From an uncultured Exiguobacterium sp. (GTDB lineage: Bacteria > Bacillota > Bacilli > Exiguobacteriales > Exiguobacteriaceae), in contig CAJYMC010000007.1 of NCBI GenBank assembly GCA_913775715.1, positions 1,550,001-1,614,000 of the forward strand: DNA of 64,000 nucleotides. Direction: 5' to 3'. Of the stretch, positions 35,227-49,685 are shown piece by piece. Within the stretch, counting starts at the first letter, position 1. Each line of letters starts with the position of its first letter. The notes under the pieces were generated by a model. The model did not search any database and was not told the origin of the DNA. It saw only the letters and a list, made by a program, of their open reading frames with translations. A program made the translations under genes and the position numbers.

Positions 35227-35266
35227 ACAAAAAAGAACCGTCCGTTTGGTAGACAGTTCTTTTTTG
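35227..35266 (-). terminator. Terminator of the glycopolymer locus
   Basis: ACAAAAAAGAAC / GTTCTTTTTTGT hairpin 5 bases past the stop codon of the LCP gene, with an inner GTC/GAC pair. Confidence 0.8.
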
Positions 35267-35271
35267 TACTT

Positions 35272-36198
35272 TTAAGAAGACGTGAGGATGGCGTGAAGTT
35301 TAGCTTTCGTTTGTCTCATGGATTCATCCGATGCAAAGAAGTACCATACCCCGTCGTTTGCGATATAGCCTTCTCCGTCTAGCTTTAATGGTTTCAGCTG
35401 TTTGAATCCCGGCTGATTTTCTTGAGCAAGTTGTGCCGCCACGTCAAAACCGATGTTCGTCGCGAAATTGTGCTTCATGACATTCGTGATTTCTTCCATC
35501 TTGGTCAGTAAACGAGGTCCCGCCAGTTTAGCACCGACGGCTTCTAAAACTTGACGTTGTCGAATCTGTCTGCCCATATCGCCGAGTGGATCCTGTTTTC
35601 GCATACGTGCGTAACCACTCGCTTCTAGACCGGTCAAATGAATTTTGCCTTTCTCATACTCCTTTTGTAGACGGCGGTCGTTCCAGCTGAAGGCGGATGG
35701 ATTATCCACTGTGACACCGCCTACAGCATCAACCAATTCAATCAAACCATCCATATTAATCTTAGCGTAATATGGAATATCGACATCAAACGTCTGTTCC
35801 ACCGTTTCGACCGTTTCCTTCACCCCACCATAGGCATACGTATGATTGATCTTCGTCTTTTCACCCGTCGGTATTGTGACTTGCATGTCGCGTGGAATGG
35901 ACAACGAAGTCGCTTGCTTCGTTTTCGGATTAAACGAGAGTAGCATGATCGCATCTGCCCGTCCCTTATCATTCTTACGCTCATCCACACCAATCAAAAG
36001 GACATTGACTGGCTTCATCGATGCGAGCGGCTTTGCTTGTTTTCCATCCAACGGCTGTAAAAAGGAATGTGCCGTTTGTTGGATTTTTAAAAATGCCAGT
36101 CCCGTCGAAGCGCTAGCAATCAGGACGACCACGAGCAGAAGCGCACTGATGACGCGCCATATGATCGGAGGTCTTCGTTTATCGATGCGTGATTTCAT
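35272..36198 (-). CDS. LytR-CpsA-Psr family wall-polymer ligase
   Basis: Transfers lipid-linked glycopolymers to peptidoglycan at the outer face of the membrane. One N-terminal helix (about 15-35), then the LCP domain: NVLLIGVDERKNDKGRADAIMLLSFNP, SIPRDMQVTIP (the Arg/Asp pyrophosphate site), KINHTYAYGG, DGLIELVDAVGGVTVDNP and GYARMRKQDPLGDMGRQIRQRQVL. 308 residues. Last gene of the wecC-to-LCP unit, 13 bp after the DHHW gene. The context makes it the likely enzyme that fixes this locus's polymer to the wall. Confidence 0.93.
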   Translation of the reverse strand: MKSRIDKRRPPIIWRVISALLLVVVLIASASTGLAFLKIQQTAHSFLQPLDGKQAKPLASMKPVNVLLIGVDERKNDKGRADAIMLLSFNPKTKQATSLSIPRDMQVTIPTGEKTKINHTYAYGGVKETVETVEQTFDVDIPYYAKINMDGLIELVDAVGGVTVDNPSAFSWNDRRLQKEYEKGKIHLTGLEASGYARMRKQDPLGDMGRQIRQRQVLEAVGAKLAGPRLLTKMEEITNVMKHNFATNIGFDVAAQLAQENQPGFKQLKPLKLDGEGYIANDGVWYFFASDESMRQTKAKLHAILTSS

Positions 36199-36211
36199 GC
36201 TCTGTTCTCCT

Positions 36212-37384
36212 TCACAATTTGTCCTCGTACGTCTTCATCAAACCAGCAATGTTCGAGTTGTGCAGAAACAGCACCGAATCGATTTGCTTTTGTTTGGCGA
36301 ATCGGGAAACGTCAAATGATTTTGGAACGTATCGGATGTCCACGACTTCTAAGTTGGCACTTTTCGCAAGCAACGGTAACACAGGATTCGCAAACGAATC
36401 CTTTAAGACCAAGATCGTCGGACGATTTTGATTCGCCGCTGATTTCATTGACATGATACCGTGATTTCCGCGAAGGAATACCTCGTACCGATCGACGTAA
36501 TCACCTTCTTGTTTGACGAATGATTCATCGATGACAGGACGTCCACATTTCCCTTCATAACAAACATCAATGCCGTTGAAAAACGCAGGAGCATAGTAAT
36601 CCAGACGATCACCGGACGCTGCATAGGAGAGCGTCGTTTTTCGAGCTAAAGATCCGTAGTAAGCATGTTGATCCTCTTTCCGCCACTTCGTCTCAGGTAA
36701 CGCTGTTGACAGCCTCATCCCTTTTGTGATGACTCGGTAAGCTTCTGTTGCACCATCGATGTTCCAGTGATGATCCGTCTTGAAGTAGTCATTTAACTTC
36801 AGTTCCTGCAAAGAAAGATTGGTCATCCCCGCTGCTTTAAAGTCTCGTACCATTCCTTCGTAACGTACCCTCGCATTGGAAGCGACATAAGACGGAATTA
36901 GTTTGTCCCGTTCCGCGATGACGGTTTTAGACGGTGCTAACGCCATATAGACCGGACGATCGACTTCTTCAACGAATTGCTTGAATGCTAGCGGAATTTT
37001 TACGTTTCCTGATGCACTCGGTTCAATCATATAATCGTTTTTTGCCGTATAAATGCCATTGCGAAACGGCTGTCGAAAGACATCTTTTGATAAAAGCGCC
37101 TGTATCTCGACGAACGTTCCTCGCAACAGTAACTGATCCGTGAAATAGGTCTCCATCTTGAGCATATCTTTCCCCGTGGCGATTCCCTCGACGGTCGGAT
37201 CGACCGATTGGGCAAGTGTCCGGTTCTCAAGCTGGGACCGGACACGGTCTTCCCGGACAATCGTTCCGAGTCCGATCGCCAGTAACACAACAATGAAACT
37301 GATACTCGTCACCCACATCATGATTCGTTCGAAAGAAGGTTTTTTATTCGTGTGCTGTTGCGTTTTCATCAATGGCTGTTCCAT
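36212..37384 (-). CDS. DHHW/AlgX-type acyl-transfer accessory protein
   Basis: Single N-terminal helix (about 22-42) and an extracellular SGNH-hydrolase-like domain. Family signs: FTDQLLLRGTFVEIQALLSKDVFRQPF, KTDHHWNIDGATEAYRVI (the DHHW motif, about residue 190) and TILVLKDSFANPVLPLLA (the Ser nucleophile block). This family includes AlgX/AlgJ and works with an MBOAT membrane protein to put acetyl groups on polysaccharides. It is encoded right after the MBOAT gene (15-bp gap), which supports this job. The acyl group and acceptor are not known. Confidence 0.88.
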   Translation of the reverse strand: MEQPLMKTQQHTNKKPSFERIMMWVTSISFIVVLLAIGLGTIVREDRVRSQLENRTLAQSVDPTVEGIATGKDMLKMETYFTDQLLLRGTFVEIQALLSKDVFRQPFRNGIYTAKNDYMIEPSASGNVKIPLAFKQFVEEVDRPVYMALAPSKTVIAERDKLIPSYVASNARVRYEGMVRDFKAAGMTNLSLQELKLNDYFKTDHHWNIDGATEAYRVITKGMRLSTALPETKWRKEDQHAYYGSLARKTTLSYAASGDRLDYYAPAFFNGIDVCYEGKCGRPVIDESFVKQEGDYVDRYEVFLRGNHGIMSMKSAANQNRPTILVLKDSFANPVLPLLAKSANLEVVDIRYVPKSFDVSRFAKQKQIDSVLFLHNSNIAGLMKTYEDKL

Positions 37385-37399
37385 GAATAGACCTCCTTA

Positions 37400-38788
37400 T
37401 TAGAACCGGAAATAGATGAACGGATTAAACGTACTCGCAACGAGCGCCGATGTCGCAAGGAACAACATTAACATGGCGTACCCATACTGCATCGTCGTTC
37501 CGACTTTCCCGAGAGAGACGACGACACGTTCTCCGAGATATTTTGGAATCGGTGTCGCAGCGATACACGCGACAAGGAGCAGGACACCATTTTGAACGAG
37601 TTGGTAACTCGCCCGATCATCCCATAGCACATCGGGTACAAACATCGCTTGAATATACGTAACGGCCTCCGGGAACGTCTCTGAACGGAAGAATACCCAA
37701 CCGACGAGCACGAGGACCAGCGTCCAGACTGTCGAGACGACTGGCATGCGCTCCAGCCATTTCCCGAGAAATGCTTTCTCAAGCATGATCCAAATTCCGT
37801 AATATGCCCCCCAGGCGACGAATGTCCAACTCGCACCATGCCAAAGGCCTGTCAACATCCAGACGATTGCCAGATTTCGATATTGCCGCCACGGCGAAAC
37901 GCGATTCCCTCCTAGCGGAATATAAACATAGTCGCGGAACCAGGATCCGAGTGAGATATGCCAACGACGCCAAAATTCTGACACGGATTTTGAAATATAC
38001 GGGTAGTTGAAGTTCTCTAGGAAATGGAATCCGAACATCAGTGCTAACCCGATCGCCATATCGCTATATCCAGAGAAATCAAAATAGATCTGTAAGGCAT
38101 AAGCAATGATTCCAATCCATGCTAGTCCCATCGAAAGGTCTTTCATATTAAAGACAGCGTCTGCGACTTGACCACATCCGTTCGCAAGAATCAATTTTTT
38201 CGATAGTCCGATCGTAAAGCGACGAACACCCCGCGCAAAATCCGATACCGTCTCTTGACGCGATTCGATCTGACTTGCAATCGTGTTGTAGCGGACAATC
38301 GGACCTGCGACAAGTTGCGGGAAAAACGCGATATAAAGGGCAAGGTCGAGCGGATTCTTTTGCACCGCTTCCTTCCCTTTATAAATATCGATGACGTAAC
38401 TCATCGCATGAAATGTATAAAAGGAAATCCCGAGCGGTAAGACGACTTCCGGAACGAACCAACTCAGTCCAAATGATTCATTAACGGAGCGGACGAAAAA
38501 TCCGCTGTACTTAAACCAGCCAAGCAATCCGAGATTGACGACAATCATGCTGAACATGATCCATTTCACTCCGACACGTTGCCGGTAAAGATCAACGAAT
38601 AGGGCAAAGAAGTAATTGATCGCGACGCTGAGTAGCATCAGTAAGGCGAAGCGTGGTTCTCCGAACGCATAAAAGAACAGGCTGGCAACTAACAGCCAGC
38701 CGTTACGGAATGTCCGAGGTAGCACATAGTACACGAGCAGTACTGCCGGCAAGAACAAAAATAAAAAAATCGTCGAACTAAACAGCAT
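37400..38788 (-). CDS. MBOAT O-acyltransferase (AlgI-like)
   Basis: Multi-span membrane protein that passes an acyl group from the cytosol to an outer acceptor. Starts MLFSSTIFLFLFLPAVLLVYY as AlgI-type proteins do, shows SISFYTFHAMSYVIDIY-like segment (LGISFYTFHAMSYVIDIYKG), WRRWHISLGSWFRDYVYIPLGG and the catalytic His in MLTGLWHGASWTFVAWGAYYG. 462 residues, full length. It overlaps the upstream 161-residue unknown gene by 11 bp, and the DHHW partner follows. Together they form an O-acylation module for the locus polymer. Confidence 0.94.
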   Translation of the reverse strand: MLFSSTIFLFLFLPAVLLVYYVLPRTFRNGWLLVASLFFYAFGEPRFALLMLLSVAINYFFALFVDLYRQRVGVKWIMFSMIVVNLGLLGWFKYSGFFVRSVNESFGLSWFVPEVVLPLGISFYTFHAMSYVIDIYKGKEAVQKNPLDLALYIAFFPQLVAGPIVRYNTIASQIESRQETVSDFARGVRRFTIGLSKKLILANGCGQVADAVFNMKDLSMGLAWIGIIAYALQIYFDFSGYSDMAIGLALMFGFHFLENFNYPYISKSVSEFWRRWHISLGSWFRDYVYIPLGGNRVSPWRQYRNLAIVWMLTGLWHGASWTFVAWGAYYGIWIMLEKAFLGKWLERMPVVSTVWTLVLVLVGWVFFRSETFPEAVTYIQAMFVPDVLWDDRASYQLVQNGVLLLVACIAATPIPKYLGERVVVSLGKVGTTMQYGYAMLMLFLATSALVASTFNPFIYFRF

Positions 38789-39263
38789 AGGTTGCTTCCT
38801 CCTCTGCCTTGACGTATTGCGCGATGGCGAGTTCGCGGAGATGGACCCGGAAGCTCCCTTCGTTTAAGAACTTCCAGGCGATTTTGAAATAAGCCGCTCC
38901 TGGCACACGCTCCATCTCGAGCTGTACGATCGTTTCATTCGTCAACGTCAGCTGCTCTGTCTCAGAAACCATCCGCTTCTTCTGTCCATACTGCATCTTG
39001 AATACTTGAACGACACATGGTTCCTCCACTTCAAAGCGGCACGTCACTTGAATGATGTCCCCTGTTAGTTCAGCGTCTTTTCGATACAGTTTTGAAGGCG
39101 GATGTTGAAAGCCTTGATCGAATAGTTGCAGATACAGTTTGTCAGTCGCTATCGCATCCTGAAAATCAAAACACACCCCTGGCGCTGCATCTTCGAGCAA
39201 AATCTTTTCCTGCGTACCGAACGGAAAAAACTGATAGCTCGCGACAGTCAGCTCCTTATTCAT
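38778..39263 (-). CDS. Unknown beta-rich protein in the glycopolymer locus
   Basis: Not recognised. 161 residues, no signal peptide and no membrane helix, predicted mostly beta-strand from the alternating pattern (IIQVTCRFEVEEPCVVQVFKMQYG, IVQLEMERVPGAAYFKIAWKFLNEG, FRVHLRELAIAQYV). It looks like a small carbohydrate-binding or beta-sandwich fold. Its start overlaps the wecB stop by 4 bp and its end overlaps the MBOAT start by 11 bp, so it is tightly coupled to both. Possible roles include recognising the nascent polymer or helping the acylation module; both are guesses from place and fold. Confidence 0.7.
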   Translation of the reverse strand: MNKELTVASYQFFPFGTQEKILLEDAAPGVCFDFQDAIATDKLYLQLFDQGFQHPPSKLYRKDAELTGDIIQVTCRFEVEEPCVVQVFKMQYGQKKRMVSETEQLTLTNETIVQLEMERVPGAAYFKIAWKFLNEGSFRVHLRELAIAQYVKAEEEATYAV

Positions 39264-40360
39264 ACCGGTACCTCACTCATGATCGCATCGACGATTCGCT
39301 CTGCTGCCTGTCCATCACCATACGGATTCGCAGCTTGCGCCATCGATTGATAGAAGGCTTCGTCCGTCAATAATTGATGGCTCATCGCATAGATGCGCTC
39401 TGGATTCGTACCGACCAGTTTCAAGGTTCCAGCCTCGACGCCTTCAGGTCGTTCCGTCGTCTCCCGTAAGACAAGAACGGGAACGCCGAGTGAAGGTGCT
39501 TCTTCTTGAATCCCACCTGAATCTGTCAGGATGAAGGAAGCACGCGCTGCCAGGTTATGGAAATCAAAGACATCGAGCGGATCAATCAACTGAATCCTCG
39601 GATGATGTTCCAAGCGAGCTGCTGCTTCTAGCACGACTGGATTCGGATGGACTGGATAAACGATTTCGATTTCCGGATGATCATTTGCCAACCGTTCAAT
39701 GGCATCAAAAATCGTCGCCAGTTGTAAATGATTCTCACGGCGATGTAACGTCAGCAAGACGAGTTTTCGTCCTGACTTCTCAAGTCGCGTCAGAACAGGA
39801 TGCGTGTAGCTAGTAGAAACGGTTGTTTTGAGTGCATCAATGACCGTATTGCCCGTTACAATGATTGGTGTCTGTTTATTCTCAGCACGTAAATTCATCG
39901 CCGCTTGTTCGGTTGGAGCAAAATGATAATCCGCCAACACCCCTGTCAATTGACGGTTCATCTCTTCCGGAAACGGCGCATACTTTTCATACGTCCGCAG
40001 TCCTGCTTCAACATGACCGACTGGAATCTGTTGATAGAACGCCGCTAAAGAAGCAGCGAGCGTCGTCGTCGTATCCCCATGGACAAGGACGAGATCCGGC
40101 TGTTCCTTTTCGAGAACTCGACGCATCGCATTGAGGATACGCGCTGTCATTTCCTCTAACGTTTGACGCGGACGCATCAAATCCAAGTCATGGTCCGGAG
40201 TGATCTGGAACAATTCAAGTACTTGATCAAGCATTTCTCGGTGTTGCGCCGTTACGACGACGATTGGTTCGACGTCTGAGCGGTTTTCAAGTGCTTTTAC
40301 GACGGGGGCCATCTTAATGGCCTCAGGTCGTGTTCCGAATACAAGCATGACACGTTTCAT
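39260..40360 (-). CDS. wecB: UDP-N-acetylglucosamine 2-epimerase
   Basis: Interconverts UDP-GlcNAc and UDP-ManNAc (also called MnaA). Typical features: FGTRPEAIKMAPVVKAL at the start, VVVTAQHREMLDQVLELF, LVHGDTTTTLAASLAAFY, HVEAGLRTYEKYAPFPEEMNR, TLHRRENH and LTDSGGIQEEAPSLGVPVLVLRETTERPE. 366 residues. It supplies UDP-ManNAc to WecC, encoded three genes upstream in the same unit. Confidence 0.96.
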   Translation of the reverse strand: MKRVMLVFGTRPEAIKMAPVVKALENRSDVEPIVVVTAQHREMLDQVLELFQITPDHDLDLMRPRQTLEEMTARILNAMRRVLEKEQPDLVLVHGDTTTTLAASLAAFYQQIPVGHVEAGLRTYEKYAPFPEEMNRQLTGVLADYHFAPTEQAAMNLRAENKQTPIIVTGNTVIDALKTTVSTSYTHPVLTRLEKSGRKLVLLTLHRRENHLQLATIFDAIERLANDHPEIEIVYPVHPNPVVLEAAARLEHHPRIQLIDPLDVFDFHNLAARASFILTDSGGIQEEAPSLGVPVLVLRETTERPEGVEAGTLKLVGTNPERIYAMSHQLLTDEAFYQSMAQAANPYGDGQAAERIVDAIMSEVPV

Positions 40361-40382
40361 CTACTTCATCCCCTATCTCATT

Positions 40383-41213
40383 TCATGACGATCGTTCGAT
40401 CGTCTCGCCTCTCATCTGTTGCTCAATGTCACCAATTCGACCGGTTCGTTTTTTCGAAACATAGTGAGTGGCTTGCTTTTTAGATAACTGTTTGTACCAA
40501 TATAAATATTTGTTGTATTCCGCGAGTGTTTCATTTGTTGGACCAAATAAGCGCACTTCGCCGTATTCCAGCCAAAGAATCTTCGTACAAAAGCTTTTGA
40601 CTTGATTCAAGGAATGGCTGACGAAAAAAATCGTTTTTCCTTGATCCCGGAATTCGCGCATCTTATCGAGACATTTCTCAGTGAATGTTTGATCGCCAAC
40701 GGATAAGGCCTCATCGATAATCAAGATATCTGGATTGATATTGATCGAGATGGCAAAACCAAGACGTGCCCGCATCCCACTCGAATAGGTTTTGACTGGC
40801 TGATCGATGAACTCTCCGATATCCGCGAACTCTAGAATTTCCGGTGTGATCTCCTCGATTTGCCGTTTAGTCAGTCCCATCATCAATCCTTTGAGTTCGA
40901 TGTTATCGCGACCTGTCAGTTGACTGTTCAATCCACTCGAGATGGCAATCAGTGCTGATTTTCCTCCTAACGTGACCCGTCCATATGTAGGCGGTGTGAC
41001 GTTAGCAAGTAAATGGGATAATGTTGATTTCCCACTGCCATTGATTCCTACAACTCCCACGATTTCTCCCTCTTCAACAGAGAAGGAGACGTTTTTGAGC
41101 GCATAAAAGGATTTTCCGCTCACTTTTCCAAATAGTACTTCCTTTAATTTATCGATTGGACGCTCATAGAGCATGTACCGTTTTGAAACGTTCTCAAACA
41201 CGACGTGACTCAT
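40383..41213 (-). CDS. tagH: Polysaccharide ABC exporter ATPase (TagH-like)
   Basis: ATP-binding subunit of a type-5 (teichoic acid/O-antigen) ABC exporter. VVGINGSGKSTLSHLLANVTPPTYG (Walker A), IAISSGLNSQLTGRDNIELKGLMMGL (the conserved aromatic-poor Wzt/TagH stretch), TYSSGMRARLGFAI (signature) and PDILIIDEALSVGD (Walker B), H-loop FVSHS. 276 residues, so it has only a short C-terminal tail, without the long extension of B. subtilis TagH or the carbohydrate-binding domain of some Wzt. Pairs with the permease gene 17 bp upstream. Confidence 0.92.
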   Translation of the reverse strand: MSHVVFENVSKRYMLYERPIDKLKEVLFGKVSGKSFYALKNVSFSVEEGEIVGVVGINGSGKSTLSHLLANVTPPTYGRVTLGGKSALIAISSGLNSQLTGRDNIELKGLMMGLTKRQIEEITPEILEFADIGEFIDQPVKTYSSGMRARLGFAISININPDILIIDEALSVGDQTFTEKCLDKMREFRDQGKTIFFVSHSLNQVKSFCTKILWLEYGEVRLFGPTNETLAEYNKYLYWYKQLSKKQATHYVSKKRTGRIGDIEQQMRGETIERSS

Positions 41214-41230
41214 CGTCTTTCCTCCTATAC

Positions 41231-42031
41231 CTATACATAATCAATGAAGTAGCGTCGGAAACGAATATGGACCGCTGCTCCGACGAGCAGGATACCAAGT
41301 GTCACACTCCAAAAATAAGCGCCATACCAGATGTGATCCATCAAGTAACCGGTTCCGATCAAGGCGGAGCGGTACCCCTCAATCAAATAGACGAGCGGAT
41401 TCAACATCAACAGCATCTTAAACAGTGAATGTTCTGGTGGAATCCACATGATCGGTGTTAAATACATCAGCATCCTTATCGCGGATGTCACCATGTTCTG
41501 GACGTCTCGTATCATCGTAGCAAGAGCAGACAATAACAACGAGACGGCATAGAGAAAGATGACGCCGGCTGGAACGATATAAAATAGCTCGAGTGTATGC
41601 CACCCTGGGAAGTAACCAAACGCACTCCCTAAAATGATCGTCAAGGCAATCATCGCAAGGTGTCGATAAAATTGCGCCAAAATGACATATGCCGGAATCG
41701 TACTTAACGGAAAATGCATTTTGGAGACGAGCGCGACACGACCGTAAATCGACCTTGATCCACTTGGAATCGTACTTCCGATGAAAAACCATGCGATCAG
41801 GCCACTAACGAGCCAAAAGACGAACGGAATTCCGTCAACAGGATGTCCACCACGGATACCAAAGCCAAAGACGACCCAGTACACCCCAATCTGAAGGAGT
41901 GGCGTCATGATCTCCCAGAACCAACCTAGATACTGCATGCTATACTGACTTTTTGTTTCATAGAGTGACAGCCGAAAGATCAGATACAGATGATCTTTCA
42001 GCTCCCCTCCGATCGTTCGCAACGCATTCAT
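41231..42031 (-). CDS. tagG: Polysaccharide ABC exporter permease (TagG-like)
   Basis: Six-helix ABC-2 permease. The start (LIFRLSLYETKSQYSMQYLGWFWEIMTPLLQIGVYWVVFG) is typical of TagG/Wzm, and MIRDVQNMVTSAIRMLMYLTPIMW and LNPLVYLIEGYRSALIG close the family pattern. 266 residues. Overlaps the wecC stop by 4 bp and is followed by its ATPase. Would carry the finished lipid-linked chain across the membrane, so no Wzx/Wzy is needed. Confidence 0.92.
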   Translation of the reverse strand: MNALRTIGGELKDHLYLIFRLSLYETKSQYSMQYLGWFWEIMTPLLQIGVYWVVFGFGIRGGHPVDGIPFVFWLVSGLIAWFFIGSTIPSGSRSIYGRVALVSKMHFPLSTIPAYVILAQFYRHLAMIALTIILGSAFGYFPGWHTLELFYIVPAGVIFLYAVSLLLSALATMIRDVQNMVTSAIRMLMYLTPIMWIPPEHSLFKMLLMLNPLVYLIEGYRSALIGTGYLMDHIWYGAYFWSVTLGILLVGAAVHIRFRRYFIDYV

Positions 42032-43320
42032 ATTGCTTTCGCATCCACTTCCGTCACGCGGTGCGTATGCAAGTTACCGAAGTTGAGGACCTTGACCGCA
42101 TCGAGTTCACGGACAATTCCTTTTGTATCGAAAAGTAACGGTGTCCGCATATAGTTTGCGAGACGACGTGAATCGAATTGTTTGAATTCATCGTGGTCGA
42201 CTAAGACGAGTGCTAAATCAGCGCCTTGGATTGCTTCCAGCTCATCGACGAGTTCGAATCGTGTCGAGATCGAACGTTCGACGTGTGGATCACAGACAGC
42301 GACATCGAGCCCACGATCGAGCAATTGTTCAATGACTTCGACAGCTGGACTCTCGCGCATGTCGTCAACATTTCCTTTATACGTCACACCGAAGACGGCG
42401 ATTTTCGGACGAACACGTGAACCGACGAGACGAGCCGCTTGTTCAGCGACGAATTGTGGCATCTGGACATTCGTTTGTCGTGCCGTATGAATGATGCGTG
42501 CAAGCGATGGGGCTTTTGCGACAATGAAGTACGGATCGACTGCGAGACAGTGACCACCCACTCCCGGTCCCGGATGATGCAAGTTCACTCGTGGATGCAT
42601 ATTTGCCATCTCGATGACGTCTAAGACGTTGATCTCAAGCTGATGACATACTTGCGTCAATTCATTCGCGAGAGCAATGTTGACATCACGGAACGTATTC
42701 TCCATCAATTTCGACATTTCAGCTGTCTTCGCGTCCGTCCGAACGATTTCCCCTTGAACGAATGTTTCGTAGACGGCTGCTCCCGCCTCTGCACATGCTG
42801 GCGTCAATCCTCCGACGATCCGGTTGTTATGAACAAGCTCGTGTAAGATTTGCCCTGGTAACACACGCTCTGGGCAATGAACGACATAAACGTCTTCACC
42901 AATCGTAAAGCCGGCTTCTTCAATCAGTGGACGAACATGGTCATCCATCGTGCGTGGCGCGATCGTTGATTCGACGATGACGACGTTTCCTTTTTCAAGG
43001 AACGGCAACATGTTGTTGACCGCTGAAATAACATATTTTAAATCACATGATTTATACGTATCATTCAAGTTCGGTGTCGGGACGGCGATTAAAAACACAT
43101 CGGCTCGTTCTGGCGTAAGTGTCGCTCGGAATTTTCCGTTGGCGACGACCCGTTTGATGACATCCTCGAGTCCTGGTTCTTCAATATGAATCGTTCCCGT
43201 GTTCAGAAGGTTGACGATTTGTGGATCGATGTCGACACCCACGACCTCCGTGCCGTGATCCGCGAACATCGCAGAAGAAGGTAATCCAATATATCCTAGT
43301 CCGATTGTACAAAGTTTCAT
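42028..43320 (-). CDS. wecC: UDP-N-acetyl-D-mannosamine dehydrogenase
   Basis: NAD-dependent oxidation of UDP-ManNAc to UDP-ManNAcA. N-terminal Rossmann motif GLGYIGLPSSAMFADHGTEVVGVDID, then FLIAVPTPN, VVIVESTIAPRT, CPERVLPGQILHELVHNNRIVGG, EMSKLMENTFRDVNIALANEL, the catalytic Cys in GPGVGGHCLAVDPYF, and KIAVFGVTYKGNVDDMRESPAVE. 430 residues. The VGGHCLAVDPYF wording fits WecC rather than UDP-glucose dehydrogenase. First gene of the second transcription unit, with a 278-bp leader region. Confidence 0.94.
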   Translation of the reverse strand: MKLCTIGLGYIGLPSSAMFADHGTEVVGVDIDPQIVNLLNTGTIHIEEPGLEDVIKRVVANGKFRATLTPERADVFLIAVPTPNLNDTYKSCDLKYVISAVNNMLPFLEKGNVVIVESTIAPRTMDDHVRPLIEEAGFTIGEDVYVVHCPERVLPGQILHELVHNNRIVGGLTPACAEAGAAVYETFVQGEIVRTDAKTAEMSKLMENTFRDVNIALANELTQVCHQLEINVLDVIEMANMHPRVNLHHPGPGVGGHCLAVDPYFIVAKAPSLARIIHTARQTNVQMPQFVAEQAARLVGSRVRPKIAVFGVTYKGNVDDMRESPAVEVIEQLLDRGLDVAVCDPHVERSISTRFELVDELEAIQGADLALVLVDHDEFKQFDSRRLANYMRTPLLFDTKGIVRELDAVKVLNFGNLHTHRVTEVDAKAI

Positions 43321-43458
43321 TTTGTCATTCCTCCATCGAGTTAGTCATACTAGCCAACAAACGGTCTGTGGCTTGGCTGTAACTAGACCATAACGACATT
43401 TCCTTTGCTTTCCAATGCTTCTAACCATCTCTTAAACCATTCTTCACAGACCTTACAT

Positions 43459-43499
43459 TTGAAGCGTTTTCTATTGTTTTTGTAAATCTTATAAAGCTT
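43459..43499 (-). promoter_or_regulatory. Shared upstream element, copy 2 (before wecC)
   Basis: Minus strand: AAGCTT, TATAAGA, then TTTACAAAAAC, then CTTCAA, in 41 bp. The same order with the exact 11-mer TTTACAAAAAC occurs at 49747-49788 before the other operon of the locus. About 140 bp before wecC. No convincing -35/-10 could be fixed; the 43321-43598 gap holds no supported ORF. Confidence 0.5.
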
Positions 43500-43533
43500 T
43501 CACGAAAACTTCGGTGCCATTTGTACCAAACAA

Positions 43534-43587
43534 AACGACCCGTCAAGAATCCACCTGCATTCCACGTGGATTTCCTTTCGAGTCGTT
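43534..43587 (-). terminator. Possible terminator after the first glycosyltransferase unit
   Basis: Outer arms AACGAC / GTCGTT and inner arms AATCCAC / GTGGATT with a large internal loop, 12 bases past the stop codon of the gene at 43599. T-rich minus-strand sequence follows. Weaker than the other terminators. Confidence 0.45.
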
Positions 43588-43598
43588 GACTGTTTTTC

Positions 43599-44852
43599 TT
43601 ATTTTGTCCCAGATTCCATGAAAACCGAGTCATATACGGCTAACAATCGTCCTTTTTCTTGCTCCCAGTTGTATTGTCTCCTTGCTACGCTTGCTCGCTC
43701 CTGCATCGCCTGTCGCAAGCTCTCATCCTTTACTAAACGGTTGACCGCCTCAGCGATACTGTGCGGCGATTCGACATCGACGATTAATCCGATTCCTTCC
43801 GAATCGACGACACGACGAATTTCTGGTAAGTCTGCCGCGATAACAGGAATCAATGCCGCCATGTATTCGAATAGTTTATTCGAAGAAGCGGAATAATGAT
43901 TGAAACAGACGTTTTGGAGGACTTGAAAGCCGACGGTCGCCGCTGCAGTGTAGCTTGGTAGTTCAGCAAGCGGAACCTTCTCAACGAAGCGGATTCGAGA
44001 CTTTTCTGATGATTGCGCAGCCATTTGCATCAGCTTTCCTTTTAACTTTCCATCCCCAACGAAAATCAATGTTCCTCGATTGATGAACGGCATCGCTTCA
44101 ATGAGCCGCTCCAGTCCACGACCTTCTTGGATCCCGCCTTGATACAACAAAATCGGCTCGTCTGATGCAAGTGCTAATTCTTCTCGTAACGGTCGCGGTT
44201 GCGGAACAACCGGTTCGTAAAACGGATAATTGTGCAAGACGGACGGTCGTGTTCCGTATAACTTTTGATGGTAATCCGCACGCGTGTCATTTTCAACGAT
44301 TGTCTGATCGACGAAATGAAGCAACCAGCGCTCTAGTTTCCCCTGCATGCTACCATAGCCTGTCCGATCGGTCTGGACTTCATGTGAGTCATAGACGATT
44401 TTCGTACCACGCGCCGCCCCAATCGCTTGTGGTAACGTATTGACATCGTTCGCATGCATGACGTCGTACTCATGCTTCCGGGCAGCACGTGTCATACGAA
44501 GAATCCCAAAACTGTTGTAGAGGGCGTAACGGATGAATCGACTTCGCATCAGTAAAAAGAACACGAGCATCACGGGAACGAGCCATGGCGCAAGAAGCGC
44601 ACCCATCAATCCAATAGCAAGAGTCCGCTTTTTTCGTTTGCGAAAGAACGGGAGCCACCTTGCAAAAGGTGGCGTCCGGTCGATTCGAATGACGCGAAAA
44701 CCAGGCATCGGATATTCGACTTCTGGAAGTGTGCCGTCATTTAAGCAGTATAGGTCCACACGGTGTCCTGCTTCGACGAGTGCCGTACATTCACGTAAGA
44801 CACGGGCGTCATTCGTAAAAGGATTCCAAACAAACATTCCAATGCGCTTCAT
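43599..44852 (-). CDS. GT4-family glycosyltransferase with internal membrane segment
   Basis: GT-B fold enzyme. Begins RIGMFVWNPFTNDARVLRECTALVEAGHRVDLYC, and the C-terminal half has PILLYQGGIQEGRGLERLIEAM, IRFVEKVPLAELPSYTAAATVGF and SSNKLFEYMAALIPVIAADLPEIRRVV (EX7E-like acceptor/donor region). Between the N-terminal strands lies a clear hydrophobic stretch (about residues 78-102, LAIGLMGALLAPWLVPVMLVFFLLM) flanked by basic residues, probably a membrane dip. 417 residues. Overlaps the previous gene by 4 bp. Sugar specificity unknown. Confidence 0.88.
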   Translation of the reverse strand: MKRIGMFVWNPFTNDARVLRECTALVEAGHRVDLYCLNDGTLPEVEYPMPGFRVIRIDRTPPFARWLPFFRKRKKRTLAIGLMGALLAPWLVPVMLVFFLLMRSRFIRYALYNSFGILRMTRAARKHEYDVMHANDVNTLPQAIGAARGTKIVYDSHEVQTDRTGYGSMQGKLERWLLHFVDQTIVENDTRADYHQKLYGTRPSVLHNYPFYEPVVPQPRPLREELALASDEPILLYQGGIQEGRGLERLIEAMPFINRGTLIFVGDGKLKGKLMQMAAQSSEKSRIRFVEKVPLAELPSYTAAATVGFQVLQNVCFNHYSASSNKLFEYMAALIPVIAADLPEIRRVVDSEGIGLIVDVESPHSIAEAVNRLVKDESLRQAMQERASVARRQYNWEQEKGRLLAVYDSVFMESGTK

Positions 44853-46063
44853 TCTGCGACCGCCTTTCGTGACTGCGTTTGTTCGATGGCTTCAAACAAG
44901 CGCTGTTCATTTTGTTCCCAATCAAAATGGCGTTGGACGTAATCCACACCCGCCCGTCCCATCGCTGCACGTTTCTCTGGATTTCGCGATAACTCGAGAA
45001 TATGATCAACGATCTCTTCTTTTTTCCGCTCGATCGAGACATACCCAGCTCCTGCCTCTTCGATGACATGCGCCGCGTGTCCAGATACCGCACCGACGAT
45101 GGCACATCCCATCGCCATGTAGTCGATGATTTTGCCTGGTGTCACTGTATCGAATGCTGTACTTTCAACAAGTGTCGCAAAGGCAATATCACTTTTTGCG
45201 AGTTGTTTCAACGCATCCCAGCGTGGCATCGCATCAAGAAACTCGATGTTCGTCAATCCGCGTTCCTTAACGAGTCGTTCGAACGTTTGCTTATGGTAAC
45301 CGTAACCAACGACTTGAAAACAGATATCCTGCTCTTGTTGAAGTTCCTGTGCAACATCAAGCAACAAAAACACATCTTGTGCAAGTCCAATATTTCCGGT
45401 GTACACAACGCGAACTTGTTCTGATACTTTTCGACGTTTGATCAACCACTCGTTTTCCTCGATGGAGTTCGGGATGTAATGAATTTTTTCCGGTGCAATG
45501 CCTCGTCCCTCGATATACGATCGAAAACCCTCACTATTGATGACCAATTGATCTGCCTGGCGATACATCCATTTCTCAAGCCAGTAGAGCGGAGTGAGTA
45601 ACAAACGTGATTTCGTGATGCCGACACCAATCAACGATTCCGGCCATAAGTCACGTACATCAAGAATCAAGGGAGCCTTCTTGACGTGTTTTGCGACGAC
45701 CCCGACGAGTCCCATGAAGATAGATGGCGTCGTCGCATAGATGTAGGCATAGGATTTCGGATCATTCCGCACTTCTTTTATCGCAAGCACGAATTGTTCC
45801 ACGAACAAGCGAAGACGTCGCCATAAATTATTCGTTGCCCGGACATCACGCGGCTGAATACGGGTCACATGTGCCGTATCGAGGCTCGGTTCATCCCAGA
45901 ACATCGAGTCCGTATAGAGTTCTGCCGTCGGATAGAGCGGTTCTGACGTCAGCACATGGACGTCATTTCCCGCTTGTTCCATCCGTTTGAAAATATTCTT
46001 CATTCGGTTTGCCGCACTACCGATTTCTGGATAGAAATTTTGACAAATCATCAAGACGTTCAT
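44849..46063 (-). CDS. GT4-family glycosyltransferase (WbuB-like)
   Basis: Starts NVLMICQNFYPEIGSAANRMKNIFKRMEQAGNDVHVLTSEPLYPT, the usual WbuB-type opening, and has LILDVRDLWPESLIGVGI, VYTGNIGLAQDVFLLLDVA and TPGKIIDYMAMGCAIVGAVSGHAAHVIEEAGAG. The start at 46063 (404 aa) is chosen because GGAG lies 6 bases ahead and it overlaps the methyltransferase stop by 4 bp (ATGA); the open frame to 46165 would run deep into that gene. Likely uses a UDP-HexNAc donor, as family members often do; not proven. Confidence 0.9.
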   Translation of the reverse strand: MNVLMICQNFYPEIGSAANRMKNIFKRMEQAGNDVHVLTSEPLYPTAELYTDSMFWDEPSLDTAHVTRIQPRDVRATNNLWRRLRLFVEQFVLAIKEVRNDPKSYAYIYATTPSIFMGLVGVVAKHVKKAPLILDVRDLWPESLIGVGITKSRLLLTPLYWLEKWMYRQADQLVINSEGFRSYIEGRGIAPEKIHYIPNSIEENEWLIKRRKVSEQVRVVYTGNIGLAQDVFLLLDVAQELQQEQDICFQVVGYGYHKQTFERLVKERGLTNIEFLDAMPRWDALKQLAKSDIAFATLVESTAFDTVTPGKIIDYMAMGCAIVGAVSGHAAHVIEEAGAGYVSIERKKEEIVDHILELSRNPEKRAAMGRAGVDYVQRHFDWEQNEQRLFEAIEQTQSRKAVAE

Positions 46064-47064
46064 CGACGACTCCGGCGTTGTTTGAGTTGACGTCGGAACT
46101 TCCAGTAGCGGACGACGACTTTTCCGAGTTTTGAGCGCGCGAGTGAGCGGTACTTTGATTTCCATGACGCATTCGCCTCCAGCAATTCTAGATTTGACAT
46201 CAGTGATCCTTCAAATCGGTCAAGCAATACGGCATATTGTTCTTCGAGCATCTTGTATTGTTCATGCTGTTCCTGCAGTTGCTGTTCATGACGTAGCGAT
46301 TCTGCTCGAATATGTTCCAATTCTTCCGTTTGTTCTCCTAACCGTTGAACTTTCCGTTCTAGATTCTGTTGTTTACGCTTTAAATCAATGATCGTCGCAA
46401 GATGCAATCGTTCCACCTCTTCAAAGGCATCCTCGAGCCATTCGACTTCCGCTGGTAAAATCGATCGACTGTCTTGTGGTTCTGGATAGACTTGGATCGT
46501 GACTCCGAGCCACTTATCAATCCGCTCGACCGTCTCGATTTTACCAAAAGGTGTCAACTGCTCAAGCAATTGATTTAAATAGTATGTCCGTTTATGATCC
46601 GCATAATCGTTTACTCCGAATGGGACTGTGATGACGAGTCGTCCTTCTGGTGCGATGAACGAGACGGCTCGGGCGATAAAGCGCTCGGGCTCTCCGATAT
46701 GTTCCAGTACTTCCGTCATCAAGACTGTATCGAATTGAATGTCAGGTGTGTACGTCATGACATTTGCTTCATGTAATTCTACTTTTTCTTTTACGGATGC
46801 TGGTTCTTCAAGTAAGGCTTGTTTGGCCTCGATGATCGCTTCCGGTAGTACATCGATTCCGACGACATGTTTCCCTTCCCGTCCAAGTAAAATCGGAACG
46901 ACTCCACCCGAACACCCGATATCTAAAATGTGCTCCCCTTTTGCTTGTCGAACGATCCAGTGAACACGCGCGCGGACTTTTTTACCGAATCCACCACCTA
47001 ACTGATCGTAGTAGGCAGCTCGGATTTGATCTTTGGGGCGTGCTGTTTTCATCGATGCCGTCAT
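46060..47064 (-). CDS. SAM methyltransferase with C-terminal coiled coil
   Basis: Class I methyltransferase (residues about 30-190): HILDIGCSGGVVPILLGREG (motif I), VVGIDVLPEAI, FDTVLMTEVLEHIGEPERFI and PEGRLVITVPFG. Then about 95 residues (205-300) form a strong predicted coiled coil (LKRKQQNLERKVQRLGEQ and following), ending in a very basic tail (RYWKFRRQLKQRRSRR). The start has GAGGAGG 7 bases ahead and overlaps the previous stop by 4 bp. The combination of methyltransferase and coiled coil beside an ABC exporter recalls WbdD-type chain terminators, but there is no kinase domain. Substrate unknown. Confidence 0.88.
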   Translation of the reverse strand: MTASMKTARPKDQIRAAYYDQLGGGFGKKVRARVHWIVRQAKGEHILDIGCSGGVVPILLGREGKHVVGIDVLPEAIIEAKQALLEEPASVKEKVELHEANVMTYTPDIQFDTVLMTEVLEHIGEPERFIARAVSFIAPEGRLVITVPFGVNDYADHKRTYYLNQLLEQLTPFGKIETVERIDKWLGVTIQVYPEPQDSRSILPAEVEWLEDAFEEVERLHLATIIDLKRKQQNLERKVQRLGEQTEELEHIRAESLRHEQQLQEQHEQYKMLEEQYAVLLDRFEGSLMSNLELLEANASWKSKYRSLARSKLGKVVVRYWKFRRQLKQRRSRR

Positions 47065-49685
47065 TTCTGCACCTCCTCGAGTAATAAGTGTTGGAGTCGA
47101 TCTGTTTCCTGTCGATCTGCAAGTTCTATGAACTGACGGATCAATGGGTTCGTCAACGTGATGGGTTCATAGAAACTGATGATCGTGCGTAACAATGCGA
47201 CACTCGGTGCGAAATCCTTATCACTGCAGTAGCGCAATTTAACGAGATACCAATGCTCGAAGAAATGCTCGAATCGTGTTTCCTTGTATTCCTCCAGTAT
47301 TCCATAACGAGCGAATTTCTCAGCTCGTGCCCGCTCTCGGACGACACTTCGTTCGAAGAACTTCACCGTCAATGCATTCACGGTCGATCCGGCAACTGCC
47401 GCATAATAATAATGGATGACTCGATTGACGAGTAAGACACGATTCGCGCGAAGCATCAATTCTTGGAAGAACAAGGAGTCCTGACCGACCGCACCGACGA
47501 CCTGTTCCAATTGATGTTCGAGCAGGAACGTGCGACGGACGACGAGTGCTTGAATGCTTTGTACCGCAAACCGATGTTTCAATAGAAAAGCTTTCGGATC
47601 CTCGCAAACCGTTCGTCCTTGTTTACGAATCGTCGGTAAGGCGATGATACTCGTCTTCTCAGCCAGCTTTTTCATATGCCCTGCCACAAAATCAAGTGAT
47701 GGATCATTTTCTAGTTCTTGAAGCAAAAAGGCGTAACGATCACTGAGTACCTCGTTATCCGGATCAAGGAACGTCACATACTCAGCCCGCGCCATCTCGA
47801 CTCCTTTGTTACGCGGACGTGAAGCACTGCCGCTTCCGCCTGTCTCGAAGAAATAGGTTCTGACATTTCCATAGCGTCGTGCGAGACGCTCTACGGCTTG
47901 ACGTGTCGCTATGTCCGTCGATCCATCATCTACGAGTAAAATCTCCGACTCCATGAATCGATCCATTCGCGTGAGACTGGCGAAACATTTATACGCGAGG
48001 TGTTTTCCATTGTTATAGATCGGAACGACGACCGACAGTTGTGGGGTCTGATTCGTCGGTACTACTACCTGTTCATTCCATTCAAATTGATCGAGCAACA
48101 GTGTTTTTCCGTTCAATTCATCTGCCTGGAACATGTCATATCCGATATCTGACCTCCAGATAATTGCACCGTTTCGACTACCACTCATCTCTTTTAGATA
48201 ATACGGATGCTCGCTTCCCTTTCGAACGATGCTGGCGTCGCTATATTTAAAGCCATTCACGAGGTCCTCTAAATAAAATTCGCCGTAGGATTCCTCTCCA
48301 TCCATCCAAGCAACGAGATCGGCTTGATTATAGGTTTGCTCCGTCAACATATCCGCTGAGACGATTTCGTCTGGTGTGAGACTTTGGCGATCAATCACGT
48401 CACGAATGGATTCTCCGTCCTGAGCGACAACGACTAATAAACGATGTTTTCGTGTCTCAGGTATGCGCCCGATGAACGCTAGAATCTGATCCATCCGCTC
48501 GAAGACTGTATGTCCCGTCATGACGGCACGAAGTCCTTCTGCTCGGAAACGCTCGATTTCTTCTTGCGACGTGCGCTCCACGATCGCTGTCGCCTCTTGT
48601 GCGTCATGCACGGTAAAAATGTTTGGAAACTCATTATTGACCGCGATACTGTAATTCGACAGAATCAAATTCCCGAGTGCTTGTGATTCATAAACGCGTC
48701 TGGCGCACATCGTTTTACTGTATTTAATGCTGTTCAAGTTCAAGACCCAGTCATAACATTTACTGACTTGTTGTAAGGCATCATAAGGAATCGCTGGTGC
48801 GACCCGTGATTGATAGCGTTCCGGGAACTGGTAAGCTGGTAAATCTAGGTGATAATTCCGGTCCACGATATCGAGTTCGTGCGAGGATTGCATCACCCCA
48901 TCAAATAACATTTCCGTGTCTTTCACACGCTCCGGATATTTTGCCATCCAGCTACCGGCAAATAAGACGCTCTGCTTTCGACTACGTGTCGCCCCGATTG
49001 GATTATGAATTAATGGATTGACACCAAACGGCATCGCCATGATGCGATTGTGTCCACATAAGACACGGTATTCAGGGATCATCGCTTCATCTGAAGTCAG
49101 AACGTAATCCGCAGCTTGCGCCACATCTTGAAAACGTTCATGATTGCTCGGGTCTTCTGTCGATTGAAAAACAACTGGAATGCCTTTATCTCTCACTTCT
49201 TGCATCATCGCAAGTAATCGGTGTCGCTTCTTGGAGTTCGGTGTGGCGACACCTTTCCAATCATCATTTTGTAGTCCCTTCCAAGACGAAATAACTAAAA
49301 ATAGATCAATTGGTCGTTTGAAGACATCTTCAAACGTATCAGAATTAACATAATGAAGATGAGCTGCATCTTCATAGTAGGCATACATGAATTCCGAACA
49401 GACGATGGCTATCTCGATTGGTCGTTTTTCATAGTAACGCGTCGTCGTCCGGACCGGTATAGGTGAGACATCCAATTGATCTAAAAGTGATGCTTGGCTA
49501 TTTTGTCGATAACGTGTCGTCGTGTTTTTTGAAGTTCGAACCGATGGCAGATGCAAGACGTCCAGTTGACGAAGTCTTCCGAGTGACTCTTTACTTGCTG
49601 CCGTTTCGCTTGTGAGCCGCTTCTTCTCTTCGCGAACCCAGTTCAGTTGCTGCATGATTTGTCGTTTCCATTTTTGATCACTCAC
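47061..49685 (-). CDS. Two-domain glycosyltransferase (CgeB-like plus GT2)
   Basis: 874 residues. An N-terminal helical stretch (1-45) leads into a GT-B-like, CgeB/spore-maturation-type domain about 90-410 (IAIVCSEFMYAYYEDAAHLHYV, VVFQSTEDPSNHERFQD, ADYVLTSDEAMIPEYR, SVLFAGSWMAKYPERVKD, KTMCARRVYESQALGNLILS). A linker follows, then a GT2 domain from about 548 (QLSVVVPIYNNGKHLAYKCF, ILLVDDGSTD, ASRPRNKGVEMARAEYVTFLDPDNE with the DxD). It could transfer two sugars or a repeating pair. GTG start at 49685 after AGGAAGGG. First gene of the first transcription unit of the locus. Confidence 0.85.
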   Translation of the reverse strand: MSDQKWKRQIMQQLNWVREEKKRLTSETAASKESLGRLRQLDVLHLPSVRTSKNTTTRYRQNSQASLLDQLDVSPIPVRTTTRYYEKRPIEIAIVCSEFMYAYYEDAAHLHYVNSDTFEDVFKRPIDLFLVISSWKGLQNDDWKGVATPNSKKRHRLLAMMQEVRDKGIPVVFQSTEDPSNHERFQDVAQAADYVLTSDEAMIPEYRVLCGHNRIMAMPFGVNPLIHNPIGATRSRKQSVLFAGSWMAKYPERVKDTEMLFDGVMQSSHELDIVDRNYHLDLPAYQFPERYQSRVAPAIPYDALQQVSKCYDWVLNLNSIKYSKTMCARRVYESQALGNLILSNYSIAVNNEFPNIFTVHDAQEATAIVERTSQEEIERFRAEGLRAVMTGHTVFERMDQILAFIGRIPETRKHRLLVVVAQDGESIRDVIDRQSLTPDEIVSADMLTEQTYNQADLVAWMDGEESYGEFYLEDLVNGFKYSDASIVRKGSEHPYYLKEMSGSRNGAIIWRSDIGYDMFQADELNGKTLLLDQFEWNEQVVVPTNQTPQLSVVVPIYNNGKHLAYKCFASLTRMDRFMESEILLVDDGSTDIATRQAVERLARRYGNVRTYFFETGGSGSASRPRNKGVEMARAEYVTFLDPDNEVLSDRYAFLLQELENDPSLDFVAGHMKKLAEKTSIIALPTIRKQGRTVCEDPKAFLLKHRFAVQSIQALVVRRTFLLEHQLEQVVGAVGQDSLFFQELMLRANRVLLVNRVIHYYYAAVAGSTVNALTVKFFERSVVRERARAEKFARYGILEEYKETRFEHFFEHWYLVKLRYCSDKDFAPSVALLRTIISFYEPITLTNPLIRQFIELADRQETDRLQHLLLEEVQK

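Follow-up and report, generated by a model that had tools for sequence, protein, structure and literature searches.

What does a run of twelve minus-strand genes in an uncultured Exiguobacterium make, and is the product bound to the cell wall? The genes span positions 35272–49685 of the window (the whole stretch of DNA analysed, 64,000 nucleotides), and the original prediction described them as a near-complete wall-polymer pathway. This proposal is supported by close relatives of the main enzymes and by joint conservation of the genes, and the locus is likely a dedicated pathway for a predicted ManNAcA-containing, O-acetylated wall glycopolymer. Every ORF was found at the predicted position and strand, and 11 of the 12 proteins were named by Pfam (run on all 12) or NCBIfam (run on 10 of these), in line with the gene families proposed: LytR_cpsA_psr, DHHW/ALGX, MBOAT, Epimerase_2, ABC_tran, ABC2_membrane, UDP-sugar dehydrogenase, two GT4s, a methyltransferase and one PF13524 + GT2 protein.

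The gene ends had been described as mostly overlapping, which holds for 6 of the 11 junctions; the other five are gapped, four by 13–22 bases and one, 3' of the GT417 gene, by 278 bases (43321–43598, minus strand). In this last gap, a strong terminator-like hairpin (-33.4 kcal/mol, z -3.8) directly follows the stop codon of the upstream gene, and the locus therefore probably comprises two transcription units, the second starting at wecC. A gap of 264–302 bases occurs at the same junction in all nine named loci of the genus. We rejected the idea that its hairpin is a conserved terminator, since this same strong hairpin was found in just the two nearest of these nine loci. A long, A/T-rich terminator-like hairpin with a T tail also lies 3' of the LCP gene (35227–35267, minus strand). 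Because the scans were no richer than shuffles, either for terminators (16 found, 15.6 expected) or for promoters (22 versus 20.2), it counts as positional support only. It should be noted that the GT438 ORF overlaps that of MT334 by 106 bases, so that its real start may lie downstream of the called one.

The locus encodes both a UDP-GlcNAc 2-epimerase and a UDP-ManNAc dehydrogenase, in agreement with the proposed WecB–WecC pair. WecB (39260–40360), of the non-hydrolysing type, passes the NCBIfam wecB model with 510 bits (cut-off 210). For WecC (42028–43320), the best equivalog is UDP-ManNAc dehydrogenase, at 432 bits, which is under its curated cut-off of 459. Its nearest solved relative is S. 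aureus Cap5O (E 1.4e-162), followed by an archaeal UDP-ManNAcA dehydrogenase (2e-95), and both far outscore the solved UDP-glucose dehydrogenases.

A TagGH-type exporter was likewise recognised. The TagG/TarG-type ABC permease (41231–42031) matches TarG among solved relatives (1.1e-73), and the TagH-type ABC ATPase (40383–41213) passes the TagH model PRK13546 (326 versus a cut-off of 320). Against the longer PRK13545 it scores 420, under the cut-off of 538, and aligns to positions 4–252 of this 549-position model, lacking the C-terminal extension of long TagH. The initiating TagO-type transferase, correctly reported as absent from the window, has a gene elsewhere in the genome, where we found two PF00953 proteins, presumably one TagO and one MraY.

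The predicted acylation pair is borne out by its relatives. The PatA/DltB-like MBOAT acyltransferase (37400–38788) has DltB among its close solved or characterised relatives, and the DHHW-family protein (36212–37384), a PatB1-like O-acetyltransferase, matches B. cereus PatB1 (7e-23) and carries the KDS, DxRY (here DIRY) and TDHHW blocks. The pair resembles in these respects the PatA/PatB system that O-acetylates the secondary cell wall polysaccharide of Bacillus, but it differs in sharing an operon with WecC and TagGH; B. cereus patB1 is reported to adjoin csaB and S-layer genes. The LCP protein (35272–36198), a LytR_cpsA_psr member as had been predicted, is closest to TagU (2e-52), which points to a TagU-like glycopolymer–peptidoglycan ligase.

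Three glycosyltransferases are encoded upstream. GT874 (47061–49685) carries a PF13524 (CgeB-like) domain followed by GT2 and is a probable backbone polymerase component, while the WcaI-like GT438 (44849–46165) and GT417 (43599–44852) belong to the GT4 family.

The prediction was open to refutation by relatives lacking the set, and conservation did not refute it: all 12 genes were found in each of the 18 other genomes of the genus (GT874 being cut by the end of the stretch in 11 of them). Moreover, 19/19 genomes of the genus have two TagG copies, TagA, TagB/F-type genes and a further WecB-type gene that scores above the cut-off, and the exporter of the locus is therefore a second, dedicated one.

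The sister genus offers a different picture. P161 occurs in 17 of its 19 genomes, and in all 17 the stretch read also holds WecC, TagG, TagH and WecB; MBOAT–DHHW accompany them in 15 of the 17, G012 and G019 showing no match to either in that stretch. These 17 genomes gave no match to PF03808 (TagA) or PF04464 (TagB/F) and have one TagG each, 54–60% identical to that of the window; a related polymer thus probably replaces wall teichoic acid in most of the sister genus. The two genomes without P161 are G001, with PF03808 and PF04464 matches, and G002, with a divergent WecC–TagGH–WecB set and a PF04464 protein. A GT874-like protein is the sole glycosyltransferase of the locus present in 17/17 sister-genus loci. 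GT417, MT334 and LCP had no match in any of them, and GT438 had a single weak one (26%), so that the chain structure probably differs there; judged from gene content, the polymers of the two genera could not be one structure. A coil-only relative of MT334 is kept in G016, a sister-genus genome.

The genus, with teichoic acid genes, the locus and separate exporters (19 genomes), thus stands against a sister genus with mostly the locus type only (17/19). This contrast is a natural experiment, and it is therefore testable which teichoic acid functions a ManNAcA polymer can assume.

MT334 (46060–47064), predicted to be a coiled-coil methyltransferase, fits that description. Pfam and the predicted structure place a SAM methyltransferase domain at its N-terminus, followed by a single predicted helix of 106 residues (204–309, block pLDDT 72–92), in which power at 3.5 residues was the strongest among the periods scanned (permutation p 0.002), and by a predicted basic C-terminal helix (312–333). 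This order is the layout reported for WbdD, the terminator of E. coli O8/O9a and Klebsiella O-antigens, which has a methyltransferase, a coiled-coil ruler and a terminal helix and is described beside a two-domain glycosyltransferase and an ABC exporter; MT334 likewise adjoins the two-domain GT874 and an ABC exporter. NodS, reported as one of the two structures nearest to the methyltransferase domain of WbdD, stands at ranks 7, 8, 12, 16 and 19 among the 50 Foldseek matches listed for MT334. MT334 differs from WbdD in that no homology was detected apart from the methyltransferase fold, in its Gram-positive host, and in its partner TagH, which is without a C-terminal extension. We thus tentatively regard MT334 as a candidate chain terminator or ruler, a role with somewhat less than an even chance, its capping function being suggested by architecture only. 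That MT334 is just a sugar methyltransferase of the ordinary kind, with a coil that only scaffolds the glycosyltransferases and no part in ending or measuring chains, comes close to an even chance: WbdD is absent both from the 17 solved chains matched by phmmer at E<=0.01 and from the 50 Foldseek matches listed, and two relatives keep the coil and tail with the methyltransferase absent. MT334 offers a way to test coiled-coil length rulers in Gram-positive wall polymer synthesis.

P161 (38778–39263) is the one protein left unnamed. It had no Pfam match even at E<=10 and no sequence match to any CBM family, but its fold is a jelly roll like that of known CBMs (Foldseek, best E 1.6e-5, TM about 0.5). 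We consider it a new, Pfam-unknown protein family with a clear CBM-like jelly-roll fold and suggestive fusions. Among the best 50 of 1774 Foldseek matches, 26 are carbohydrate-binding modules, 11 are Eph receptor domains and none is Wzt. Elsewhere, proteins of the Asn-synthase type carry the P161 domain as a fusion, and a Paenibacillus relative beside a PMT_2 protein has it after a membrane segment. These matches and fusions favour a sugar-binding-like module that would hold the chain for export or tailoring, a role we put forward as doubtful but plausible. It is quite possible, if short of an even chance, that P161 binds no sugar and is instead a structural component of a complex such as that of the MBOAT or the exporter: the Eph domains illustrate the use of this fold for protein binding, and no secretion signal was seen by eye, whereas PatB-type tailoring takes place outside the cell. 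Two narrower roles were weakened. A reader of a methyl mark only fits poorly, because P161 is kept in the 17 sister-genus loci in which MT334 is unmatched, and a strictly cytoplasmic location fits poorly with the N-terminal membrane segment of the Paenibacillus relative (topology by eye).

Repeats at the N-terminus of sister-genus glycosyltransferases were also compared with P161. Earlier comparisons were not significant; hhalign gave a score of 25.5, with a probability of only 14%, against a maximum of 21.2 in 100 column shuffles and 13.9 for the reversed alignment, which is only suggestive of homology. Of the alignments, A1 holds 28 rows from 35 P161 sequences, seven near-identical ones being dropped, and A2 holds 19 loci plus the window, from 22 loci (L087 and L095 dropped as near-identical, L098 as broken). 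Only the C-terminal part of each fused protein was included, and some sequences were cut back to begin at a later start codon.

Could the product be a loosely attached or released capsule or exopolysaccharide rather than a wall-bound polymer? ABC exporters serve capsules as well. LCP is unmatched in the 17 sister-genus loci, and an external capsule, with expression of capsule genes, is reported for E. sibiricum (PMC2615787). We nevertheless find this improbable, given the type of TagG and TagH and the TagU-type LCP gene at the operon end in 19/19 genomes of the genus; moreover, the locus TagG is the only one in genomes without TagA or TagB/F matches, and the window's genome has another sugar-polymer-like locus (L061) with its own LCP gene. 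It is highly improbable that the genes form a wall teichoic acid set in which ManNAc from WecB goes into the TagA linkage unit and WecC is a side branch: WecB, TagGH and LCP do belong to the teichoic-acid machinery and the genome has TagA and TagB/F-type genes, but the second TagG and WecB-type genes throughout the genus, and the WecC–TagGH–WecB set kept in 17 sister-genus genomes without TagA or TagB/F, speak against it.

A wall-bound ManNAcA polymer would resemble wall teichoic acid in its TagGH/TarGH export and LCP (TagTUV) attachment, with TagG, TagH and LCP in the locus and a TagO-type protein in the genome, but the locus encodes the enzymes for the UDP-ManNAcA precursor and lacks a polyol-phosphate polymerase; no PF03808 or PF04464 was found among the 12 genes, such genes lying elsewhere in the genome. 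With the S. aureus type 5 capsule, reported to be TagO-independent, it shares a Cap5O-like dehydrogenase and predicted ManNAcA, O-acetylation and LCP attachment, but differs in ABC export, in MBOAT and PatB1-type acetylation, and in the absence of the FucNAc pathway among the 12 genes. It is like teichuronic acids as a predicted wall polymer with uronic acid, and unlike them in its TagGH export and in the TuaD-type score of WecC (171 bits), far below its ManNAc-dehydrogenase score.

In the proposed pathway, TagO would start the lipid carrier, WecB and WecC would supply UDP-ManNAcA, and GT874, GT438 and GT417 would assemble the chain in the cytoplasm. MT334 may then modify the chain end and set its length via the long coiled coil. 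TagGH would export the finished chain, which outside would be O-acetylated by the MBOAT and PatB1-like proteins and attached to peptidoglycan by the LCP enzyme. Enzyme families, active-site motifs, gene conservation and architecture are read from sequence; we infer what MT334 and P161 do, in which order the steps run, and the substrates other than UDP-ManNAcA. Taken jointly, a Gram-positive terminator-and-checkpoint assembly can be imagined, in which MT334 caps and measures the chain, P161 is a Wzt-C-like module that either recognises sugar in trans, in partnership with a TagH that has no such module, or hands the chain to tailoring enzymes, and teichoic acid is displaced in most of the sister genus; we consider it unlikely that all these parts hold together. 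Searches for papers on Gram-positive coiled-coil rulers, a ManNAcA TagGH locus and the wall polysaccharide of Exiguobacterium, with subscription journals thinly covered, brought up no title or abstract opening that describes this locus.

Beyond the two genera, five genomes from other families also have WecC next to TagG, although the stretches read of such WecC–TagGH loci mostly lack WecB, MBOAT and DHHW. Relatives of GT438 also occur in other families, and those of GT417 reach 44–46% identity in four such genomes. In one genome of another family (G068, L151), a 17-kb stretch holds GT438, GT417, a GT874-like protein, WecB, WecC, TagG, TagH, LCP and an MBOAT. Finally, an apparent TagG–TagH fusion in E. 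flavidum (a 518-residue ORF, L045/L088) was discarded: the long ORF arises from the TagH frame running on at its 5' end, and TagG has a frame of its own.

The locus, twelve minus-strand genes at 35272-49685 of the window, encodes a pathway whose type is known and whose combination of parts is new; in a group of species its product is probably the principal wall polymer. No description of this pathway was found in paper searches that took in parts of two Exiguobacterium genome papers. The positions of the 12 open reading frames of the original prediction were confirmed on the window sequence, and Pfam and NCBIfam confirmed 11 of its 12 gene assignments; the remaining one is P161, an unnamed 161-residue protein (38778-39263). 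Genes overlap at 6 of the 11 junctions, and one junction is a 278-base gap holding a strong hairpin. They likely form two transcription units: GT874-MT334-GT438-GT417 (a two-domain glycosyltransferase, a coiled-coil methyltransferase and two GT4-family glycosyltransferases) and wecC-tagG-tagH-wecB-P161-MBOAT-DHHW-LCP. Two testable novelties stand out, namely the MT334 coil and P161.

The surrounding genome measures 3.06 Mb. After the locus lies a pullulanase gene (32182-35094) with a signal-like start, which is kept in all 18 other genomes of the genus and has no evident function in building the wall. A further sugar-polymer-like locus (L061, G000:C9:195000-214900), probably an exopolysaccharide locus, has its own LCP gene, a GT4-like protein and a UDP-sugar dehydrogenase 33% identical to WecC.

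UDP-ManNAcA is well supported as the predicted product of WecB and WecC, because WecB is a non-hydrolysing 2-epimerase (NCBIfam, 510 bits), WecC has S. aureus Cap5O as its closest relative (E 1.4e-162), and the S. aureus type 5 capsule is reported to be ManNAcA-containing, O-acetylated and handled by LCP enzymes (PMC7831098). The second relative of WecC is an archaeal UDP-ManNAcA dehydrogenase, and UDP-glucose dehydrogenases rank far below both; its NCBIfam equivalog score falls slightly below the cut-off. Moreover, the polymer is firmly predicted to be O-acetylated. The DHHW protein aligns with PatB1 of B. cereus over 51-384 (5V8D; E 7e-23) and carries counterparts of all three PatB1 blocks described in a review (KDS, DxRY and TDHHW; PMC9487903), with DIRY for DxRY, while the adjoining MBOAT acyltransferase has DltB as its closest PDB relative. 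The closest relatives of TagG and of the LCP ligase are TarG and TagU, respectively. Two PF00953 proteins are encoded outside the window, one of which is presumably TagO.

The comparison covered 38 genomes of the family, 19 from the window's genus and 19 from its sister genus, and members of both carry the name Exiguobacterium. Window proteins were sought by tblastn (E<=1e-5) in stretches of about 20 kb. Conservation of the gene set in relatives, which had been proposed as a check, was borne out, all 12 proteins being found in the 18 other genomes of the genus (19 stretches, one genome counted twice; GT874 is truncated at the stretch end in 11, and the best LCP fragment in G021 spans only residues 124-308). 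In the sister genus, P161 occurs in 17 of 19 genomes. Because these 17 all have WecC, TagG, TagH, WecB and a GT874-like glycosyltransferase, 15 of them have MBOAT and DHHW, and none has a match to GT417, MT334 or LCP, the two genera share a constant precursor-export chassis and nearly constant tailoring, with the assembly glycosyltransferases swapped. GT438 had a weak match in one of the 17; MBOAT and DHHW had no tblastn match in the G012 and G019 stretches, and the G019 contig ends nearby.

Every one of the 19 genomes of the window's genus holds a second TagG copy (44-46% identical to window TagG), PF03808 (TagA type) and 2 to 11 matches to PF04464 (TagB/F type), so that the locus polymer would there be a second polymer, served by a separate exporter in genomes that also carry a regular teichoic acid set. 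Genes for glycerol and ribitol teichoic acids have been reported in E. sibiricum (PMC2615787). In the 17 sister-genus genomes with P161, TagG is single-copy (54-60% identical to window TagG), and neither PF03808 nor PF04464 was matched in any of them (Pfam, E<=0.001). In these species a polymer of this kind probably takes the place of wall teichoic acid. Two genomes of the sister genus are exceptions: G001 has PF03808 and four PF04464 matches, and G002 has one PF04464 match, a divergent WecC-TagG-TagH-WecB set and no P161 match. In G002 this set and the PF04464 protein lie within 20 kb (L147), with no P161, MBOAT or DHHW match, possibly a hybrid of teichoic acid and ManNAcA polymer.

Outside the family, TagG matched 76 further genomes of the class (E<=1e-40), and we read 38 regions from 36 of them, chosen by hand, most of them high in the list. 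WecC directly adjoins TagG in four (L144, L148, L151, L161), and a region reached through P161 (L127, genome G342) is a fifth case; in L157 a weaker dehydrogenase (35%) lies one gene away from TagH. L151 encodes GT438 (cut), GT417, a 98-residue coil protein, a GT874-like protein, WecB, WecC, TagG, TagH and LCP, with an MBOAT (53%) at its edge.

The MT334 model (mean pLDDT 79, pTM 0.60) comprises a methyltransferase domain to about residue 192, one helix at 204-309 and a basic helix at 312-333. Hydrophobic residues in it recur most strongly every 3.5 residues (permutation p 0.002 for this period), as they do in the longer coil of a Paenibacillus homologue (0 of 5000 permutations). Coil-only proteins of 95 residues in G016 (L041:14512-14799) and 98 in G068 (L151:2051-2347) share its SxLxK...YW basic tail and adjoin a GT874-like gene. 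WbdD is described as a catalytic domain, a coiled-coil ruler and a C-terminal amphipathic helix with polymerase recruitment, the terminus being read by a CBM on the transporter ATPase (PMC11231755); its O8 form has methyltransferase activity alone, and the structures closest to the methyltransferase domain of O9a WbdD are those of NodS and RebM (PMC3482155). NodS is within the top 20 Foldseek matches of MT334, behind MtfA. By analogy, MT334 may work like WbdD, yet we do not class it as WbdD, because none was found by phmmer or among the 50 Foldseek matches listed.

Pfam gave no match for P161 even at E<=10, and sequence searches found no credible relative of known structure (a single chance-level match at E 0.92, none with a profile); the nearest named relative of P161 is from Exiguobacterium sp. 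Leaf196 (96%). Of the 38 family genomes 36 carry it, as do 37 of the 398 genomes of the class; just one of these 37 belongs to another family. In E. profundum PHM 11 (G013; L115/L098) an in-frame internal stop breaks P161, which may therefore be dispensable there. AlphaFold models P161 with confidence (pLDDT 91, pTM 0.84) as mostly beta with one short helix. Foldseek gave 124 PDB matches at E<=0.001; the 50 listed include 26 carbohydrate-binding modules (CBM61, 22, 11, 29, 4, 16 and others) at TM about 0.5, 11 Eph receptor domains, 7 phage-type tailspikes and 4 Cry proteins.

In G342, the P161 domain ends a 761-residue protein with PF00733 (L127:555-2840; E 1.5e-9) inside a WecC-TagG-TagH locus. 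In four sister-genus genomes (L036-L039) it is the C-terminus of 654-659-residue proteins; these match the G342 protein by blastp (21-22% identity, E 1e-12 to 5e-18) and on this sequence similarity are related to Asn synthase, and the one tested had no Pfam domain. By eye, G342 seems to retain the nucleotide-binding loop of the synthase, which the Exiguobacterium fusions seem to have lost. This fusion to Asn-synthase-type proteins, with a loop apparently intact in G342, is a hint that ManNAcA may be amidated in some relatives. In Paenibacillus sanguinis the domain follows a membrane segment beside PMT_2 and GtrA proteins, with a UDP-sugar dehydrogenase, an MT334-like protein and a PF13524 glycosyltransferase upstream. 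From these contexts we infer, as a common thread, a module that holds sugar chains and lies next to proteins of export or tailoring. Finally, the large PF13524 glycosyltransferases of the sister genus (L036:2899-6048 and equivalents) have an N-terminus of roughly 500 residues, unnamed in Pfam, whose two or three beta-sandwich-like repeats look similar to P161, which is suggestive of a relationship.
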